The translations under genes and the position numbers were made by a program. The notes under the pieces are model-generated. The model ran no database searches. It saw nothing but the letters and a program-made list of their open reading frames with translations, and was not told where the DNA came from. From an uncultured Paracoccaceae bacterium (GTDB taxonomy: Bacteria; Bacteroidota; Bacteroidia; Flavobacteriales; Flavobacteriaceae), in NCBI GenBank assembly GCA_943788135.1, contig CALSPC010000004.1, forward strand, positions 1 through 64,000: a stretch of 64,000 nucleotides of DNA. Direction: 5' to 3'. Positions 18,570 through 30,027 of the stretch are shown here, piece after piece. Numbering within the stretch: the first letter of the stretch is position 1; each line of letters opens with the position of its first letter.

Positions 18570-21023
18570 ATGCGTTTATTAGTATTTTGCCTCCTCTGTA
18601 CTTTATCCGTTTCGGCTCAACTTATAGGGACGATTACAGATGATAATAACCAACCCATTCCTTATGTAAATATTTATCTTGAAAACTCCTATACAGGGAC
18701 GACTTCAAATGCCAATGGCAACTATGAATTAGGGCTTTCTAAAACTGGCACATACAGCGTTGTTTTTCAGTTTTTGGGCTATAAAACACAAACCAAAACC
18801 ATAGACATTAAACAGCTTCCTTATGTCTTAGATATTACTTTATTAGAAGAAAATATTTCTCTAAATGAAGTGGTGATTAGTACCAATGAAAATCCTGCAA
18901 ATCGCATTGTAAGAGCTGCCATTGAGAATCGAAAATTACAGCTTGAAAAAATAAAGTCATATACTGCTGACTTCTACTCCAAAGGGTTGATTCGAATTAA
19001 AAATGCCCCAGAAAAATTTTTAGGACAGGAGGTAAAACTTGATATTGGTTTAGATTCTACGCGCTCTGGGATTTTATATTTATCTGAAACCATTTCAAAG
19101 ATCAAATACCAAAAACCCAATCAACTAATAGAAACAATTAGTGCCTCTAAAGTGAGCGGAAATTCTAATGGATTTAGCTTCAATAACGCCAGCGATGTTG
19201 ATTTTAATTTTTACAATAATACTATTGATATTAATACAGAAATCGTGTCGCCTATTGCCGACTACGCTTTTAATTATTACCGCTACAAACTCGAGGGTGT
19301 GTTTTATGACAATCGCGGAAATTTGATTAATAAAATTAAAGTTATCCCACGGCGTGAAAACGACCGTATATTTTCAGGAATTATTTTTATTGTGGAAGAG
19401 CAATGGAGTTTATATGGACTTGAACTGAGCGTAACAGGAAATCAAATTCAGACTCCTGCAGCAAATTTGGTAACCATTAAACAAAACACCTCTTACGATG
19501 AACAAAGTAAGTATTGGATTGTCAGATCACAAACGATTGAATTTGAATATGGATTTTTAGGATTTAAAGGAGATGGTAGTTTTGTGGCTAATTATTCTAA
19601 TTACAAGCTAAACCCCAATTTTGACTCTAGCGAATTTACTAATGAAGTTTTGTCCTTTGAAGCTGAAGCAAACAAAAAAGATTCAATCTATTGGAACACC
19701 CTTCGACCAGTACCGTTAACTTCTGAAGAACTTGTTGATTATATTAAAAAAGATAGTTTACAAACCCTGAAGAAATCTAAAACCTACCGCGATTCGGTGG
19801 ATACTAAAAACAATACATTTAAGTTTGGAAACTTAATTTCGGGATACACTTATGAAAATTCTTTTGAGCATAAACAATTCAGTATTAGTAGCCCTTTAAG
19901 TGGGTTTAATTTCAATACGGTTCAGGGATTCAATTCAAATTTAGACATTGACTACACTAAGCGTTACGATGAATACAAAAACTATGTGTCGTTTCAAAGC
20001 CGACTCAACTACAGTTATGAAACACAAAAACTGAGAGCAACTCTAGGGTTTCGGTATAAATTTAATAATATCGATGATTTAACTATCGGGTTCAATGCAG
20101 GTACAAAAGTTGAGCAATTTAACGCTCAAGAACCGATTTCGAGGTTTCTAAATGACATCAGTAGTTTGGCTTTTGAAGACAATTACATCAAACTATTTGA
20201 AAAGCGTTTCATTGCACTTCAATATGGGCAAGAACTTTTTAATGGGTTTAGAATTCGAACTTCTGCTAGTTTTGAAAATCGATTGGCACTTTTCAACACC
20301 ACTAATTATACGACCTTTAATCGTGACACTAAAGCCTACACAAGCAACAATCCTATTGCCTCCTCAGAATTTGAAACAGCGCCTTTTGAGAACCATAATA
20401 TTATAAAATTCAAACTGGATGGCAATATTCGTTTTGGACAAAAATACCTTAGCTACCCCGGGAGTAAGTTTAATCTTACCAATCCAAAATATCCGAAATT
20501 AAACTTTAGCTATGAAAAGGGATTAGGCGCTACAAACTCCGACTACAATTTTGATCATTTTAATATTAAACTAACCCAAAATATTAGTCTTGAAAACAAA
20601 GGGCGTTTTAGTTATAATCTACTGGGGGGTACATTTTTTGGAAATTCTGAACTCGCCTTTATGGATTACAAACACCTTAATGGAAATCAAACTCATGTGA
20701 ACTTGGAAGGCGATTATTTATCTCGTTTCAAAAACCTTGGCTATTATGATTTAAGCAGCTCCGAAAACTATATGGAGTACCACATAGAACATGATTTTAG
20801 TGGCTATATTCTAGGCAAAATACCTTTACTAAATGCCCTAAATTATAATTTGATTATTGGGGTTCACGGTTTTACAACAAAAGATAAAATCCCGTATCGA
20901 GAATTCAGTTTAGGACTCAATAATATTGGTTGGGGAAAATATCGTTTTCTTCGAATTGACTATGTACGATCGTATCAATCTGGCTTTGTGAACGACGGCG
21001 TATTATTTGGTATTAGCCTCTAG
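18570..21023 (+). CDS. DUF5686 outer-membrane protein with carboxypeptidase-like regulatory domain
   Basis: 817 residues. A signal peptide (MRLLVFCLLCTLSVSA) is followed by a carboxypeptidase D regulatory-like beta-sandwich (about 18-105, GTITDDNNQPIPYVNIYLEN) as in TonB-dependent transporters, then the DUF5686 region with alternating aromatic beta strands in the C-terminal 400 residues and a terminal strand ending in FGISL, consistent with an outer-membrane barrel. The function of DUF5686 proteins is not established. No TonB box or plug domain is recognised. The stop shares bases with that of pcm on the other strand. Confidence 0.82.
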   Translation: MRLLVFCLLCTLSVSAQLIGTITDDNNQPIPYVNIYLENSYTGTTSNANGNYELGLSKTGTYSVVFQFLGYKTQTKTIDIKQLPYVLDITLLEENISLNEVVISTNENPANRIVRAAIENRKLQLEKIKSYTADFYSKGLIRIKNAPEKFLGQEVKLDIGLDSTRSGILYLSETISKIKYQKPNQLIETISASKVSGNSNGFSFNNASDVDFNFYNNTIDINTEIVSPIADYAFNYYRYKLEGVFYDNRGNLINKIKVIPRRENDRIFSGIIFIVEEQWSLYGLELSVTGNQIQTPAANLVTIKQNTSYDEQSKYWIVRSQTIEFEYGFLGFKGDGSFVANYSNYKLNPNFDSSEFTNEVLSFEAEANKKDSIYWNTLRPVPLTSEELVDYIKKDSLQTLKKSKTYRDSVDTKNNTFKFGNLISGYTYENSFEHKQFSISSPLSGFNFNTVQGFNSNLDIDYTKRYDEYKNYVSFQSRLNYSYETQKLRATLGFRYKFNNIDDLTIGFNAGTKVEQFNAQEPISRFLNDISSLAFEDNYIKLFEKRFIALQYGQELFNGFRIRTSASFENRLALFNTTNYTTFNRDTKAYTSNNPIASSEFETAPFENHNIIKFKLDGNIRFGQKYLSYPGSKFNLTNPKYPKLNFSYEKGLGATNSDYNFDHFNIKLTQNISLENKGRFSYNLLGGTFFGNSELAFMDYKHLNGNQTHVNLEGDYLSRFKNLGYYDLSSSENYMEYHIEHDFSGYILGKIPLLNALNYNLIIGVHGFTTKDKIPYREFSLGLNNIGWGKYRFLRIDYVRSYQSGFVNDGVLFGISL

Positions 21024-21661
21024 TTTTTATTTTCTAAAAGTGGTACAAACTTAAAATTTCCGAGTTCGTGTTTTTCAAATTCTTTTGGACCTTTACGAAT
21101 ATAAAGTGTCATTATTTGCGCTTCATCTCCAACAGGAATAACTAAACGACCACCTATTTTCAGCTGTGCGAGAAGGGGTTTTGGAACAAAAGGAGCGCCA
21201 GCAGTTACAATAATACTATCAAAAGGCGCATCTTCCTCAAGGCCTTTATAGCCGTCTCCAAAAATTAAGCGTTTTGCCACATAACCGATTTTAGGAAGAA
21301 ACTTATTCGTTTTTTTAAATAGCTCCAATTGCCGTTCAATACTATAGACGTGCGCTCCTAAAAGGCAGAGTACTGCGGTTTGATAGCCACTCCCGGTACC
21401 AATTTCAAGAATTTTATCGCCGGCTTTTACTTCCAACAGTTCCGATTGAAATGCCACAGTATAGGGTTGAGAAATCGTTTGACTGGCAGCAATAGGAAAG
21501 GCTTTGTCTTGGTAGGCATGATCTAAAAAACTAGAATCCATAAACAGATGCCGCGGTATGGAACCTATAGCTTCCAGAACAGCTGCATTTGTAATGCCTT
21601 TAGCAACCAAGGTTGCCACAAGTTGTTTGCGTAGTCCTTTGTGTTTAAACGTATCTTTCAA
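21020..21661 (-). CDS. pcm: Protein-L-isoaspartate O-methyltransferase
   Basis: 213 residues. It has the SAM-binding motif I LEIGTGSGYQTAVL and the substrate motif ISQPYTVAFQSELL. It methylates L-isoaspartyl residues in damaged proteins so they revert to aspartate. The start is TTG at 21661: it encodes the first residue of the conserved MxDTxKHxGLR N-terminus and no in-frame ATG lies just upstream. The stop codon (TAG, complement of 21020-21022) overlaps the DUF5686 stop (21021-21023), so the two genes converge with a 4-bp overlap. Confidence 0.94.
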   Translation of the reverse strand: MKDTFKHKGLRKQLVATLVAKGITNAAVLEAIGSIPRHLFMDSSFLDHAYQDKAFPIAASQTISQPYTVAFQSELLEVKAGDKILEIGTGSGYQTAVLCLLGAHVYSIERQLELFKKTNKFLPKIGYVAKRLIFGDGYKGLEEDAPFDSIIVTAGAPFVPKPLLAQLKIGGRLVIPVGDEAQIMTLYIRKGPKEFEKHELGNFKFVPLLENKN

Positions 21662-21757: not shown

Positions 21758-22082
21758 TTATTGAAAAAACATTTTATTTAAGGTTTCAAATATCAGCAGC
21801 TGATTTTCTTTATTAAGAAGTGGTGTTATCGGCTCAGCAGTCGTGGGTTTACTACTAACTAAATTAACATTGGTTAGATTAAAATCTTATGGCGTCAATT
21901 TTTGGCAGTAAGTGAGTCTGTAATAATTCTAATTTTCTTTGATATACTGCTCGTGCTCCTGTGTCTACCTCTGTGGCGTTTTGGAATGCTGCACCATATA
22001 AAGCTGGTATTAACTTGTCTGTTTTTTGAGCCGAGACATTAAGCGTAATAAAAATAAATATAAGTTTTAGTAAATTTTTCAT
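21758..22082 (-). pseudogene. Small secreted protein of unknown family, frameshifted
   Basis: The ATG (22082-22080) overlaps the stop of the upstream fusion gene by one base (TGATG), so translation is probably coupled. A signal peptide (MKNLLKLIFIFITLNVSAQ) is followed by KTDKLIPALYGAAFQ. The frame stops at 21879 after 67 residues, but dropping one A at 21887 joins residue 65 to 42 further sense codons that end at TAA 21760-21758 (DFNLTNVNLVSS ... LIFETLNKMFFQ), giving about 107 residues. The extension has protein-like composition but could be chance: 42 open codons are not rare here. If the sequence is right, the product is truncated. I do not recognise the family. Confidence 0.55.
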
Positions 22083-24520
22083 CAGTTCTGTTCAAGAGTT
22101 TCAATTCTTAACTCTAATTTTTTAATCAATTTTTGTTGATGTTTTACTGCTTCAATTAAAACAGGAATAAGCCCTTCATAATTCACAGATTTGTATTCGC
22201 CTTCGTTATTAACGACCTCTGGAATTACACTCTCTACATCTTGAGCTATTATGCCTAACTGTTTATCCTCAGATAGTTCTTTGTTTTTCCAGAAATAGGA
22301 AACGCCTTTTAATTTTAAAAGCTTCTCCAAACTATTTTCGAGTGGTTCGATTTTCTTTTTAAGTCTGCGATCTGAGGTATGAACAGTAGTGCCTTGTACG
22401 GCTATATTCCCATTAACGTCTAAGGCTTGACTTGGTGAACTTGTGCCAATCCCCATTATTCCGTCTCGTCCAAAACTGTAAAGATTGGATATAAATCCCC
22501 CTGTACTATTTAATTTCTGCATTATCATTGCTCCATCAGGGCTAACATTGTCATTCCATATAAGACCCATTCCTTTTCCAGAAGCACCTCCGTGATACAT
22601 CTTTAAAGTAAGATTATTTCCTGCGTTGGCATTATCTGAAATAGTTAGTCCCGCATCATTCCCCCCATTTATATGTAATGAATTTGCGGGTGCAGTTGTG
22701 CCAATACCTACACGTTTTTGACCTGTTAAAGTCATAACATTTGCTGCTGTTCCTGCTGCCCCTCCATCGTGAAGTTTGAATCGCATCCAGTTGCCAGCAG
22801 CTGTATTATCATTCCGTACTTGGATGTCATGATAGCGTATCGCAGGATTGTCATCACGTCCTAGCCTAATAGTGCCTTCACTTTGATAAGCTTCCATTAT
22901 GCCTAAAAAAACATTACCTCTCACGTCTAATTTTTCTGTAGGGTCTGCCGTACCAATTCCAACTTGACCGCCATTAATACTCATGCCTAATAAACTAGGA
23001 TTAGCATCATTTGCATCTGTACCAAAATTCCAATTATAGAAATCAATAGAATTACCCATGTCTTGTCCACCATGATGTCTAGTACGAATCCCTTGTTTAA
23101 AAAGTGCTCCACCATCATAAGAAAATAACAATTGCTCATTTCCTGTTGTAGCAGTATCCATGCCTCCATTTCTAAAAAGTCCTATTCCATTAATATCCAA
23201 TGTTTTTATAGGAGCAGTTGTGCCAATACCTACATTTCCATTGCTAAGAAGTGTCATCACATCCGTTTGATCTACAGAATCTGTAGAGGCTAATTGGAAA
23301 TCCAAGCGGGTATTGGAATCAAAACCATTATGTGCAAAACGGCTCAATGAAAAGTTAGCTCTAGCACCCCATACCTGACCTGATGTAACTTCACGTGCTA
23401 ATTGCAATAAAGGAATAGGATCATTAAGTACAGTACTTGAGGTTGGAACTCGATTATGAGTTACAAGAAGTGCATCTTCATCGTATGCTGAGGAGCTAAC
23501 AACATTAAGATCAGGACCAACAGAAAGTATGGTTGGTGGGTCAGTCCTTCCTATCCCCACATCACCTGCTGTATATACAGCGTTTAAAGGGTTTGTGCCA
23601 TCAACAAATTTACCTGATCCTGAACTTGCATCTACCCAATTCGTGCCTGTTACTGAAGAAGATAGTACTTGACCAGATGTTCCTGCATCGCCATCACTAT
23701 CATGTATGGCTCCTGTAACTTGAGCAGTACCACTAACGGTTAGGGTATAGGGTATATTGTTAGCACCAAGTCCACCAATCCCTACATTTCCAGTTCCTTT
23801 AATGCGTATCAATTCATTTGAAGTGGTGCTACTTGTTCCTCCAAAAAACACATGATCTGCGACTTGTGGAACCTGGTATCGCAAGGTTCCTCCATTAATT
23901 CCAAAACCATAAAATTGATGATCGTCATTCGTAAAGGAGTTATTTTGCCATAAGATGAGTTTTCGGTTGTCTAAGATATTTGAAAAATGAAGCTCTGCCT
24001 GTGGGTTAGCCACTCCTCCTATTCCAATTTTTCCCGCATCTTCTAGACGATCAGCTGAAAATGAAACTAGACTAGACGGTTGAAATTGTTGCTCTAAAAC
24101 CAAACGCCCCCTTATATCAAAAACTTCAATAGTTACTGGAAATAGAGTTGGTTTAGAAAACTTAATATTTATAAAATCTTTGAATGGATTTGGATACATA
24201 GAAAGGTCTAAATTTTTAATAAATTCAGTTGCTGAATTATCAATAGCAAATACCTTTACGCGACTTAGAAACCCTTGTTGAACTGAATTTAAGGCTGTGG
24301 TTGATAAACCAACAACACCAGTCTGACCAATACTCTGTTGAATTCGAGTCTTTCTAAGTGTACCTTGGGCATCTAAATACGCCAGCGAAACAGTTCTTGA
24401 CCCTCCTGATGTGAGTACAGATTTTGTTAACTTTTGGGGTTGAGTAAAATTTTGAGCATATACATGAGTTGCGAATAACAAAACAATGAATAGAACACTA
24501 TAATTAAGGTTAAGAGTCAT
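22082..24520 (-). CDS. Secreted fusion: internal type IX sorting domain plus S74 (tail-fibre chaperone) protein
   Basis: 812 residues. After a signal peptide (MTLNLNYSVLFIVLLFATHVYA) comes a region with QSIGQTGVVG and VQQGFLSRVKV, typical of short flavobacterial type IX secretion cargo, then a sorting domain (about 104-163: LSMYPNPFKDFINIKF, VTIEVFDIRGRLVLEQQF). Such domains normally end the protein; here the chain continues at 161-168 (EDAGKIGIGG) into a tail-fibre-like protein with VGIGTxxP repeats and LDVNG/LHING motifs, ending in an S74 intramolecular chaperone (716-812, SDRRLKKKIEPL) and a C-terminal coiled coil. S74 domains trimerise fibres and usually cut themselves off. I infer an in-frame fusion of two formerly adjacent genes. 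No frameshift is seen inside. Confidence 0.85.
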   Translation of the reverse strand: MTLNLNYSVLFIVLLFATHVYAQNFTQPQKLTKSVLTSGGSRTVSLAYLDAQGTLRKTRIQQSIGQTGVVGLSTTALNSVQQGFLSRVKVFAIDNSATEFIKNLDLSMYPNPFKDFINIKFSKPTLFPVTIEVFDIRGRLVLEQQFQPSSLVSFSADRLEDAGKIGIGGVANPQAELHFSNILDNRKLILWQNNSFTNDDHQFYGFGINGGTLRYQVPQVADHVFFGGTSSTTSNELIRIKGTGNVGIGGLGANNIPYTLTVSGTAQVTGAIHDSDGDAGTSGQVLSSSVTGTNWVDASSGSGKFVDGTNPLNAVYTAGDVGIGRTDPPTILSVGPDLNVVSSSAYDEDALLVTHNRVPTSSTVLNDPIPLLQLAREVTSGQVWGARANFSLSRFAHNGFDSNTRLDFQLASTDSVDQTDVMTLLSNGNVGIGTTAPIKTLDINGIGLFRNGGMDTATTGNEQLLFSYDGGALFKQGIRTRHHGGQDMGNSIDFYNWNFGTDANDANPSLLGMSINGGQVGIGTADPTEKLDVRGNVFLGIMEAYQSEGTIRLGRDDNPAIRYHDIQVRNDNTAAGNWMRFKLHDGGAAGTAANVMTLTGQKRVGIGTTAPANSLHINGGNDAGLTISDNANAGNNLTLKMYHGGASGKGMGLIWNDNVSPDGAMIMQKLNSTGGFISNLYSFGRDGIMGIGTSSPSQALDVNGNIAVQGTTVHTSDRRLKKKIEPLENSLEKLLKLKGVSYFWKNKELSEDKQLGIIAQDVESVIPEVVNNEGEYKSVNYEGLIPVLIEAVKHQQKLIKKLELRIETLEQN

Positions 24521-24598: not shown

Positions 24599-24658
24599 TG
24601 TAACAAACGGCAATTTCATGTAATAAACGGCAATTTAGTGTAATAAACGGAAAATTAA
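24599..24658. repeat. Three 20-bp tandem repeats, possible activator-binding sites
   Basis: Units start at 24599, 24619 and 24639, an exact 20-bp period. Consensus on the plus strand is (A/G)TGTAA(T/C)AAACGGCAATTT; the third unit has AAAA in place of CAAT. On the minus strand the core is GCCGTTTRTTACA, which matches a LytTR-type consensus ([TA][AC][CA]GTTN[AG][TG]) at eight of nine positions. They lie about 42 to 101 nt upstream of the expected start site of the fusion gene, in phase with roughly two helical turns. The repeats are seen; LytTR binding is inferred. Confidence 0.7.
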
Positions 24659-24860: not shown

Positions 24861-25823
24861 ATGAAGCTAAAAGCAGGCGTCCTAGGAGCTGGTCATCTCG
24901 GAAAAATTCATCTCAAATTACTTCAGGCTTCTGAAAAATATGACCTTGTAGGGTTTTATGACCCTGACGACTCCAATGGAAAAAAAGTTGAAGCTGAATT
25001 TGGATATTCCTTTTTCAATTCAATTGAAGCACTTATCGAAGCAGTAGACGTTGTTGACATTGTGACCCCAACGCTCTCTCATTATAACTGCGCTATAAAA
25101 GCCATTACTAAAGGAAAACATATTTTCATTGAAAAGCCCATCACAAATTCTGTTGAAGAAGCCGAACAAATTCGGTTATTAGTTTCTGAAAACAATTTAA
25201 GAGGTCAAGTTGGTCATGTAGAGCGTTTCAATCCCGCATTTAAAGCGGTTAAAAACGACATCCAATCACCAATGTTTATTGAAACTCACCGGTTGGCAGA
25301 ATTCAACCCAAGAGGAACCGATGTTCCTGTAGTATTAGATTTGATGATTCATGATATTGACATTATATTAAGTGTTGTCAAATCTCCAATCAAAAATATC
25401 ACTGCTAGCGGCGTTTCTGTGATTAGTGAAACTCCTGATATTGCCAATGCTCGAATTGAATTTGAAAATGGTTGTGTTGCCAATCTTACGGCAAGTAGAA
25501 TTTCCATGAAAAATATGCGTAAAAGTCGTTTTTTTCAAAAAGATGCTTATATAAGTGTTGACTTTTTAGAAAAGCAAGTGGAGGTTGTCAAAATGAAAGA
25601 TGCGCCAAAAACACCAGGAGATTTTGACATGGTTCTACAAAATGCTGAAGGCATTAAGAAACAAATCTATTTTGAAAACCCTGAAATTGCCCCTAACAAT
25701 GCTATTTTAGATGAATTGGAAAGTTTTGCGGATGCTATAAATACGAACACAAAACCTACAGTTACCCTTAGAGATGGTACAGATGCATTAAGAGTTGCTT
25801 ATCAAATTATAAATTGTTTTTAA
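24861..25823 (+). CDS. Gfo/Idh/MocA-family NAD(P)-dependent oxidoreductase
   Basis: 320 residues. The Rossmann N-terminus reads GVLGAGHLGKIHLKLL, the family EKP motif is present (IFIEKPI, near residue 91-95), and the C-terminal half is the expected alpha/beta substrate domain (DLMIHDIDIIL). Family members oxidise or reduce sugars or related polyols in the cytoplasm; the substrate cannot be told from sequence. It opens a forward run of genes with short gaps (12 nt to the next). Confidence 0.9.
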   Translation: MKLKAGVLGAGHLGKIHLKLLQASEKYDLVGFYDPDDSNGKKVEAEFGYSFFNSIEALIEAVDVVDIVTPTLSHYNCAIKAITKGKHIFIEKPITNSVEEAEQIRLLVSENNLRGQVGHVERFNPAFKAVKNDIQSPMFIETHRLAEFNPRGTDVPVVLDLMIHDIDIILSVVKSPIKNITASGVSVISETPDIANARIEFENGCVANLTASRISMKNMRKSRFFQKDAYISVDFLEKQVEVVKMKDAPKTPGDFDMVLQNAEGIKKQIYFENPEIAPNNAILDELESFADAINTNTKPTVTLRDGTDALRVAYQIINCF

Positions 25824-27987: not shown

Positions 27988-28651
27988 ATGTCTATAAAAA
28001 CTAATTTATCTAAAATTCAATCACAGCTCCCAAATCATGTAACCTTGGTGGCAGTTTCAAAAACAAAACCTGTTGAAGAATTAATGGAAGCCTATGAAGC
28101 AGGTCAACGTGTTTTTGGTGAAAATAAGATTCAAGAAATGGCCAATAAATACCAACAAATGCCCAAAGATATCCAATGGCATATGATTGGAAATGTACAA
28201 AGAAATAAAGTCAAATATATGGCTGAATTTGTGGACTTAATTCATGGTGTTGATTCTGAAAAATTACTTAATGAAATTAATAAACATGCTAAAAAACACG
28301 GGCGTATAATCCACTGTTTATTACAACTAAAGATTGCCCAAGAAGCAACCAAATTTGGAATGAGTTCGGAAGCGGCACACACCTTATTAGAGTCTGACAG
28401 ATTTTAAGCGTTTAGAAAATGTAGCCATTGTAGGGGTTATGGGAATGGCAAGTTTTACAGACAATACTGCTCAAATTAAGGAAGAGTTTGAAACCCTTAA
28501 GAGCACTTTTGAAAGCCTAAAAAACATAAACCCAAAACTTACAGAAATTTCAATGGGAATGAGTGGCGATTATCCTCTAGCGATTGATTGTGGAAGTACA
28601 ATGGTTCGCATAGGAAGTAGTATCTTTGGCGCTCGTAATTACAGCATTTAA
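27988..28651 (+). pseudogene. YggS-family PLP homeostasis protein, frameshifted
   Basis: The first 139 residues match the PLP-binding homeostasis family (VAVSKTKPVEEL with the PLP lysine, FGENKIQEM, WHMIGNVQRNKVK). At 28399 one extra A puts the frame out and it stops at 28405. The next frame continues with the C-terminal half: DFKRLENVAIVGVMGMASFTD, MSGDYPLAI, VRIGSSIFGAR, ending at 28651. Removing one base would restore about 220 residues, the normal family length. Either a real inactivating indel or a sequence error. The family keeps free pyridoxal 5'-phosphate in balance and has no known enzymatic activity. Confidence 0.85.
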
Positions 28652-28660
28652 AATCGTATT

Positions 28661-30027
28661 ATTTACGCAATAGTAGACATAGAAACCACGGGAGGTAAAT
28701 TTAATGAAGAGGGCATAACAGAAATTGCCATCTATAAATTTGATGGACACACTATTGTAGATCAATTTATTAGCCTTGTCAATCCCGAACGAGAAATTCA
28801 ACCTTTTGTAGTAAACCTCACTGGGATTAATAGTAAAATGTTACGCTCTGCCCCCAAATTTTATGAAGTCGCCAAACGTATTGTTGAAATTACGGAAGGC
28901 TGTATTTTAGTGGCTCATAATGCACAGTTTGATTATCGAATTTTAAAAACTGAATTCAGACGTCTTGGATTTGATTTTGAACGAGAAAACTTGTGTACCG
29001 TAGAGCTTTCTAAAACACTAATTCCAGACCTTCCCTCCTATAGTTTAGGCAAATTAGTGCGTTCATTAGGAATTCCTGTTAGCGATCGTCATCGTGCAGC
29101 TGGTGATGCCACAGCTACAGTTAAGCTTTTTAAAATGCTTCTTGATAAGGATGTAGAAAAAACAATTATAAAAGCAGCCGTTCGTCTCGATCCTAGACAT
29201 CAGATGGAACCGAAATTAACGGATATTATTTCTAAATTACCCGCAGTCACTGGAGTCTATTATATCCATAAAGCTGATGGAGAAATAATATATATTGGTA
29301 AAAGTAAAAATATCAAAAGTAGAATCAATCAACATTTTACGGGTCAAACTCCCAAATCTAAAAAAATACAGTTAGAGGTAGCCACGGTTACTTACGATGA
29401 AACGGGAGTGAATTAGTGGCCTTACTTAAGGAAAGTGAAGAAATAAAACGAAATAAACCCAAATTGAATCGTGCTCTTCGTCGTACCGTTTTTACACATG
29501 GGCTGTTTAGTTTTAGAGACAGTGAAGGATATATTAATCTGAAAATCGAAAAAATAAAGGGTAACCAAAAGCCAATTACTACGTTTTCCAACCATGAAAG
29601 TGGAAAAAGTTTTCTTAATAAAATAATTGAAAAAAATCAATTATGTCAAAAACTTTGTGGACTGTACAAAACGAACAATTCTTGTTTTGGATATGACATT
29701 AAAACCTGTGCAGGCGCATGTGTTTCGGAGGAGCCTGTGGAAGCTTATAATAAACGAGTGCTTAGTATTATTGAATCGCATACATTTAAAAATCAAAACA
29801 TGATCCTTATCGATTATGGTCGTGCTGTGGACGAACGTAGTGCGGTCTTAATTGAAAATGGTGTTTTTCGAGGGTATGCTTATTTTAATTTGAACTTTCA
29901 AATTCATACAGCGGCAGTTTTAAAATCAATAATTACCCCTATGGAACACAATAAGGATGCTCAACATATTATTCAAAGTTTCATGCGGCGTCATAAAAGA
30001 TTAAAACTAATTAAACTTCAAGACTAA
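28661..30027 (+). pseudogene. DEDDh exonuclease plus GIY-YIG protein, with ATT at the start position and a frameshift
   Basis: Restored, this is a 455-residue protein: a DnaQ-like DEDDh exonuclease (IVDIETTGG, HNAQFDYR, HRAAGDA) followed by a GIY-YIG domain (GVYYIH, IIYIGKSKNIKSRI). Homologues start MYAIVDIETTGG; here the Met position is ATT (28661-28663), with no ATG, GTG or TTG between the upstream stop and codon 60. At 29405-29408 GGAGT appears to have lost one A from GGAAGT, so the frame ends TGVN-stop at 29416; the other frame continues from SELVALLKESEEIKRN to 30027. Probable role: DNA repair or processing, as in UvrC/Cho-like fusions. Likely non-functional or mis-sequenced. Confidence 0.85.

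Follow-up and report, generated by a model that had tools for sequence, protein, structure and literature searches.

We identified, in the window (the whole 64,000-nt stretch of marine flavobacterial DNA that was analysed), a gene encoding an 812-aa protein in which a truncated type IX sorting domain runs in frame into a surface-fibre-like protein with a Peptidase_S74 domain. We consider it highly likely that this protein is a chimera born of a deletion, probably a single event, and that it persists as a relic of a decaying fibre gene cluster that has been lost repeatedly within the genus, with a product that would no longer be secreted. The fused gene itself is a curiosity. The cluster merits study, since intact relatives expose it as a recurrent set of cargo, barrel, and fibre genes, and it is a larger lead than the fused gene.

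The features of the locus are collected in Table 1. As the original prediction had stated, a YPNP-type sorting domain lies inside an S74 fibre-like protein and no frameshift is present; the single frame is open across all 812 codons, which is a counterpoint to decay. The Pfam model Por_Secre_tail (PF18962) matches residues 108–146 over profile positions 1–39 of 75 (30.6 bits versus a cut-off of 27), the NCBIfam model TIGR04183 falls just below its cut-off (22.8 versus 23 bits), and the YPNP motif begins at residue 109. Downstream, seven (V/I/M)GIG turns span residues 165–689, and Peptidase_S74 is matched with 65.6 bits (cut-off 22), with its SDxxxK motif present as SDRRLK at residue 716. This is the only S74 match in the window genome (G000; 10 contigs, 92% complete). 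The interval first proposed for the gene began at 21879 and required correction, as it took in a separate 67-aa ORF. Only two weak matches to this ORF (E 0.02–0.03) were detected in the 17 congeners. A phage origin of the fibre half was also considered and is unsupported: of the 187 phage records returned by tblastn, none reached 60% identity or covered 80% of the query. The exact 30-base junction sequence had no match in viral contigs.

Table 1. Features of the fused gene and its surroundings, with positions in the window.
Feature	Residues or codons	Position	Strand	Basis or remark
pcm, conserved left border		21020..21661	-	PF01135; in 18/18 genomes of the genus
67-aa ORF, signal-peptide-like start		21879-22082	-	ATG overlaps the stop of the fused gene by one base
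Fused ORF	1-812	22082-24520	-	No internal stop
Fibre-derived part	163-812	22085..24034	-	Alignments with congener fibres
Peptidase_S74 chaperone/protease domain	716-770	22211..22375	-	Pfam
Fusion point	Between 162 (GCG, cargo) and 163 (GGA, fibre)	24032..24037	-	Codon comparison, +/- one codon
Cargo-derived part	1-162	24035..24520	-	Alignment with separate congener cargo genes
Truncated type A sorting domain	104-162	24035..24211	-	Pfam, 17-cargo alignment, AlphaFold2 model versus intact control
N-terminal stretch, putative Sec signal peptide	1-23	24452..24520	-	By eye; aligns with the starts of intact cargo proteins
Three direct repeats CCGTTTATTAC, 20-bp period, upstream of fused gene		24600..24650	-	Pattern scan
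Gfo/Idh-type oxidoreductase gene, conserved right border		24861..25823	+	Named by inspection; in 18/18 genomes

The junction was placed by comparing codons with four cargo genes and with the VGIG turns of fibres. The window reads LEDA-GKIGIGG where relatives read LED(A/S)SYxIR, and because Ala162 (GCG) agrees with the cargo and Gly163 (GGA) with the conserved Gly that precedes a VGIG turn, the break falls at 24034/24035, within one codon. The cargo and fibre codons of relatives share no long common stretch at this join. The cargo part is 49–53% identical to the separate cargo genes of four congeners (G003, G006, G008, and G009). On the fibre side, residues 159–250 are 52% identical to a syntenic fibre fragment beside pcm in G008, with the match starting at most four residues from the fusion. 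This fragment has no S74 match in Pfam, and the S74 ends of the fibres at the same place in G003 and G010 are just 28% identical to the window fibre, so the exact pre-fusion fibre is not seen among the congeners; fibre ends seem to have been exchanged.

The sorting domain breaks off around EDAGK, in agreement with the original prediction, whereas all 17 aligned cargo relatives run on for 20-odd residues beyond this point and 16 of them end in (I/L)(I/L)K. Strands 1–5 are kept in the stump, and strands 6–7 and the LIK-type end are gone; the intact cargo of G003 matches profile positions 1–74 of 75 in the same Pfam model. Unlike what defines type A cargo, the domain is not C-terminal, as it ends at residue 162 of 812.

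The borders of the locus, pcm and the Gfo/Idh gene, lie on a single contig in 16 of the 18 genomes of the genus (on separate contigs in G008 and G013), and gene order is conserved on both sides of the fusion. In G003, G009, and G010 the interval between them holds a five-gene row that comprises a cargo (184–207 aa, as called), a barrel (212–217 aa), two short fibre-like genes (~389 and 259–320 aa), and a giant fibre (1364–1838 aa). The third and fourth genes are each broken into two frames in G010, and Pfam detects S74 in the giant fibre of G003 and not in that of G009. The same separate cluster genes are spread across three contigs in G008, and both cluster ends are visible at contig breaks in G013, which probably also holds a separate-gene cluster. 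Four further congeners carry remnants: whole cargo and barrel genes plus scraps (G006), half a barrel and a cargo interrupted by an internal stop codon (G001), a shortened cargo and fibre pieces (G005), or 60–80 residues of cargo (G011). No cluster gene was found at the locus in the remaining eight (G002, G004, G007, G012, G014, G015, G016, and G017), among which G012 has a gap that holds 100 N and its ‘empty’ state is uncertain. Within the genus several copies of the cluster are probably in decay, the fused gene among them.

These observations support and refine the proposal of a deletion as the event that brought a type IX cargo gene and a neighbouring fibre gene together. The two halves do occur in relatives as separate genes at the same place, which agrees with a deletion; they are not adjacent, since the fibre is the last gene of the cluster. 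Three genes stand between (the barrel and the ~389-aa and ~259–320-aa genes), so that cargo and fibre were not direct neighbours and the deletion would have been larger than implied. The gap between pcm and the Gfo/Idh gene is 3,199 bases in the window versus 7,865 in G009, 10,320 in G010, and 10,375 in G003, from which we estimate a loss of ~5–7 kb. The barrel and the short fibre-like genes are absent from the window locus, and the sole barrel match in the window genome is on another contig. Two conserved genes nearby are each divided between two frames in the window: one at 27988–28651 (+; 139 and 70 aa) that is a single 220-aa frame in congeners, and one at 28838–30027 (+; 192 and 203 aa) that is a single frame of 396–437 aa in congeners. 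These may be either real frameshifts or small sequence errors in the assembly.

The region upstream of the fused gene is shared with cargo genes. The repeat pattern CCGTTTATTAC gave two overlapping matches in the window and none in 100 shuffles. At least two copies precede the cargo start in all nine cargo-bearing genomes scanned (the window included, with G010 outside the scan), and at least two occur at one of the eight empty sites (G007). In addition, a TAnnTTTG box, which we take to be the Bacteroidota promoter box, lies ~32–49 bases before the start in eight of nine upstream regions and is absent in G009. The repeats presumably resemble the sites of LytTR regulators. The fusion thus retains the upstream region of the cargo. 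Looser repeats of the same type (2–3 mismatches) were found elsewhere in the window genome (G000:C3:644861-645101 and G000:C7:255466-255515), where they lie near genes for proteins of 233 aa (C3) and 220 aa (C7) with signal-peptide-like starts; a reversed control pattern also matched twice.

A midpoint-rooted tree of four flanking proteins placed all cluster- or relic-bearing genomes, together with four empty ones, within one 14-member group (100/100). The window genome groups with G008 (full cluster), G011 (relic), and G004 (empty site) at 100/100, with the order inside this group of four unresolved. Among the 17 congeners, none has a full-length match to the 812-aa protein (the locus is cut by contig ends in two and holds a run of N in one), and this includes the three nearest relatives just named. 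A homologous cluster in another genus (G082) encodes a cargo and a separate 1546-aa S74 fibre, with one additional 268-aa frame. Collectively, the absence of a full-length match in congeners, the separate genes in G082, and the tree indicate that the fused gene is derived. At least eight changes are required to account for the three cluster states on the tree, and the states are clustered no more strongly than expected by chance (53 of 200 shuffles as low). That G007 keeps upstream repeats without cluster genes is expected under loss. The seven other empty sites lack the repeats, and so the four that fall outside the 14-genome group may never have had the cluster. When rates were compared with those of flanking genes, the cargo part of the window–G008 pair was the second fastest of ten pairs and the other three pairs involving the window were among the slower, a sequence comparison that indicates neither relaxed nor kept constraint.

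We propose that a five-gene surface-fibre cluster bordered by pcm and the Gfo/Idh gene would have lost ~5–7 kb, such that codon 162 of its opening gene, which encodes the small type IX cargo, came to be joined in frame to a VGIG turn within its last gene, the giant fibre. The barrel gene, the two short fibre-like genes, and the fibre’s own N-terminus would have been removed with the deletion, and the chimera would have kept the upstream repeats, start, and signal-peptide-like stretch of the cargo plus a complete S74 domain. Its product would most likely enter the periplasm by Sec and then trimerise or be degraded, without ever reaching the surface. A type IX translocon is encoded in the window genome (SprA/Sov at 2736 bits); since the sorting domain lacks strands 6–7 and no longer ends the chain, this translocon should not recognise the tag. 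In a published account, RgpB lacking two C-terminal residues stays in the periplasm and the signal of HBP35 lies within its last 22 residues; PorU and PorZ tolerated short C-terminal tags, and their function was impaired when their final residues were replaced (PMC11285876). These mutants, together with the missing C-terminal end, suggest that the window tag should not direct secretion and is in effect dead. Between the two putative fates first put forward, a secreted fibre with an unusual anchor and a broken cargo, the broken cargo is the likelier.

A chimera of the same origin might instead be a working surface fibre that is exported by the fibre route of the cluster, with the sorting stump as a harmless stalk. 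The open frame, the complete S74 domain with SDxxxK, and the retained upstream repeats would all agree with such a role. Moreover, none of the seven long fibre proteins from this and related clusters that were scanned to the C-terminus with Pfam has a sorting domain, which suggests that fibre export need not use one. We nevertheless regard a working fibre as unlikely, given that the barrel gene and the fibre’s own N-terminus are gone and that the cluster is reduced to partial or broken remnants in four congeners and is missing altogether from eight.

Less likely again, and improbable in our judgement, is that the two ends of an intact cluster were misjoined in assembly or binning. The fusion is seen in a single genome, in 10 contigs and 92% complete, and the two split genes nearby hint at small sequence errors in its assembly. 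Against a misjoin, the fusion is internal to a contig of 99.5 kb whose gene order is conserved to its left and right, the reading frame continues across the join, the cargo and fibre codons of relatives have no long stretch in common there, and comparable partial losses are evident in other congeners. That internal sorting domains are the normal architecture of these S74 fibres has the intact frame alone in its favour, and we reject it as exceedingly improbable because no congener carries a full-length match, separate cargo genes end in complete sorting domains, and cargo and fibre are separate frames at the cluster loci examined in other genera.

Structural models agree with a truncated domain. 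An AlphaFold2 model of the intact cargo of G008, used as a control, has all seven strands (block pLDDT 80–94, except for 69 near the first one), and the two PDB entries that it matches at E ≤ 0.001 are 8glk, a type IX substrate, and 8qb1, the C-terminal domain of mirolase. The model of the window protein has strands at residues 104–107, 116–121, 129–135, 140–146, and 151–155 (blocks 71–92, the last partly 76) and further strands at 162–168 (block pLDDT 66–76) and 175–178 (45), such that fibre residues 162–168 replace strand 6 with moderate confidence. The comparison with the control is indicative only, since alignment rows of relatives were cut at residue 162 for the window model, with none beyond, and were supplied in full for the control, and this difference contributes part of the drop in confidence. 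The two additional strands, and the tolerance of PorU and PorZ for short C-terminal tags, could be taken to mean that cargo strands 1–5 and fibre residues acting as strands 6 and 7 rebuild an internal type IX signal, a reading to which we assign almost no likelihood, as the conserved C-terminal motif is missing, 650 residues follow, and end replacement in PorU and PorZ impaired function (PMC11285876).

The proposed deletion-born chimera shares features with several known systems. It shares with type A type IX cargo (TIGR04183/PF18962) a signal-peptide-like start, a YPNPF opening, and strands 1–5, but its domain is truncated and internal, without strands 6–7 or a LIK-type end. With S74 fibres such as phage long tail fibres and myelin regulatory factor it shares the S74 domain with SDxxxK and the VGIG turns, and its PDB sequence matches include MyRF (7dc3) and a long tail fibre subunit (6f45); unlike phage fibres, it is a cellular gene in a chromosomal cluster with a cargo fragment at its head. 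The mosaic adhesive trimer (MAT) fibres of Bdellovibrio are likewise cellular and modular and in some cases S74-ended with SDxxxK (PMC10769870). Residues 370–457 of the fusion weakly match 8OML (E 8e-4) and 8ON4 (E 6e-3), both listed there as MAT protein Bd1334. The MAT N-terminal domain (~130 aa, after the signal peptide) has no match in the fused protein. Of 11 short fibre proteins tested, drawn from this cluster and its relatives, 7 have weak matches to the MAT N-terminal model, with 17.6–23.4 bits against a cut-off of 60; the likeness to MAT consists of such sub-cut-off scores and weak structure matches, and homology is putative. When the N-terminal domain (~130 aa) of these short fibre proteins was used as a profile, no solved structure was retrieved at E ≤ 1.

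Searches with the barrel profile revealed that the cluster extends well beyond the genus. The profile matched 27 of 397 sampled Flavobacteriaceae genomes, and at 24 of the 26 barrel loci outside the genus a small sorting-domain cargo stands beside the barrel. A fibre-type gene is also present at 22 of those 24 loci, and at the remaining two the stretch stops short of that point. In a sample of the phylum, 21 of 395 genomes matched, mostly weakly (13 of the 21 being weak and from one family). Cargo, barrel, and fibre were present in all four of the phylum matches that were fetched (G188, G207, G467, and G489, one of them from another family), these being four of the 20 matches beyond the window genome, with G207 already among the 26 family loci and G527, G756, and G772 left out. 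The window genome itself encodes a second set on contig C3 (locus L186, 6775-11704, -), comprising a 175-aa cargo, a barrel protein of 356 aa whose C-terminal part is an OmpA domain (58.3 bits versus a cut-off of 27.2), and a 1110-aa fibre. An assignment of the second cluster gene to PorP/SprF was dropped; its Pfam match is a weak one to a small barrel, with above-cut-off barrel matches in three relatives.

By title, no paper on a cargo-barrel-fibre cluster was found in a literature search with few subscription journals within reach. We tentatively suggest, while holding it slightly less probable than its converse, that the cluster constitutes a surface-fibre display system of Flavobacteriaceae not described before, in which a small protein secreted by the type IX route, a small outer-membrane barrel, and one or more modular MAT-like trimeric fibres are encoded together; the gene in the window would then be a naturally occurring loss mutant of it. 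The barrel is a candidate holder of the fibre N-terminal domain, and the small protein may have an accessory role in aiding export or capping. PorP-like partners of type B sorting-domain proteins offer a parallel, in so far as a type IX cargo is paired with an anchoring outer-membrane protein (PMC9143113); they differ in that the cluster pairs a type A cargo with a small ~210-aa barrel, for which an anchoring role is putative. According to the paper on MAT fibres, the surface element that holds their N-terminal domain is still to be identified, and the words ‘barrel’, ‘secretion’, and ‘Bacteroidetes’ are absent from its main text (PMC10769870). If our suggestion is true, the barrel would be a surface element of the kind awaited there.

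The fusion clearly illustrates how a secretion tag is left stranded in small marine genomes during the decay of a multi-gene surface cluster. How Bacteroidota display and hold modular fibres at the surface without sorting domains, and whether type IX secretion is involved, can now be tested. The composition of related loci also varies. One locus (L187, 8998-18001, in G003:C6) has a single cargo and a single barrel and, after them within the stretch, four fibre genes of the same type, of which the one scanned carries collagen-like repeats (84.6 bits). At three others (L158, L159, and L193, in G206, G171, and G188), the cargo-barrel-fibre set is followed by a protein of 1605–1908 aa with a sorting-domain-like end.
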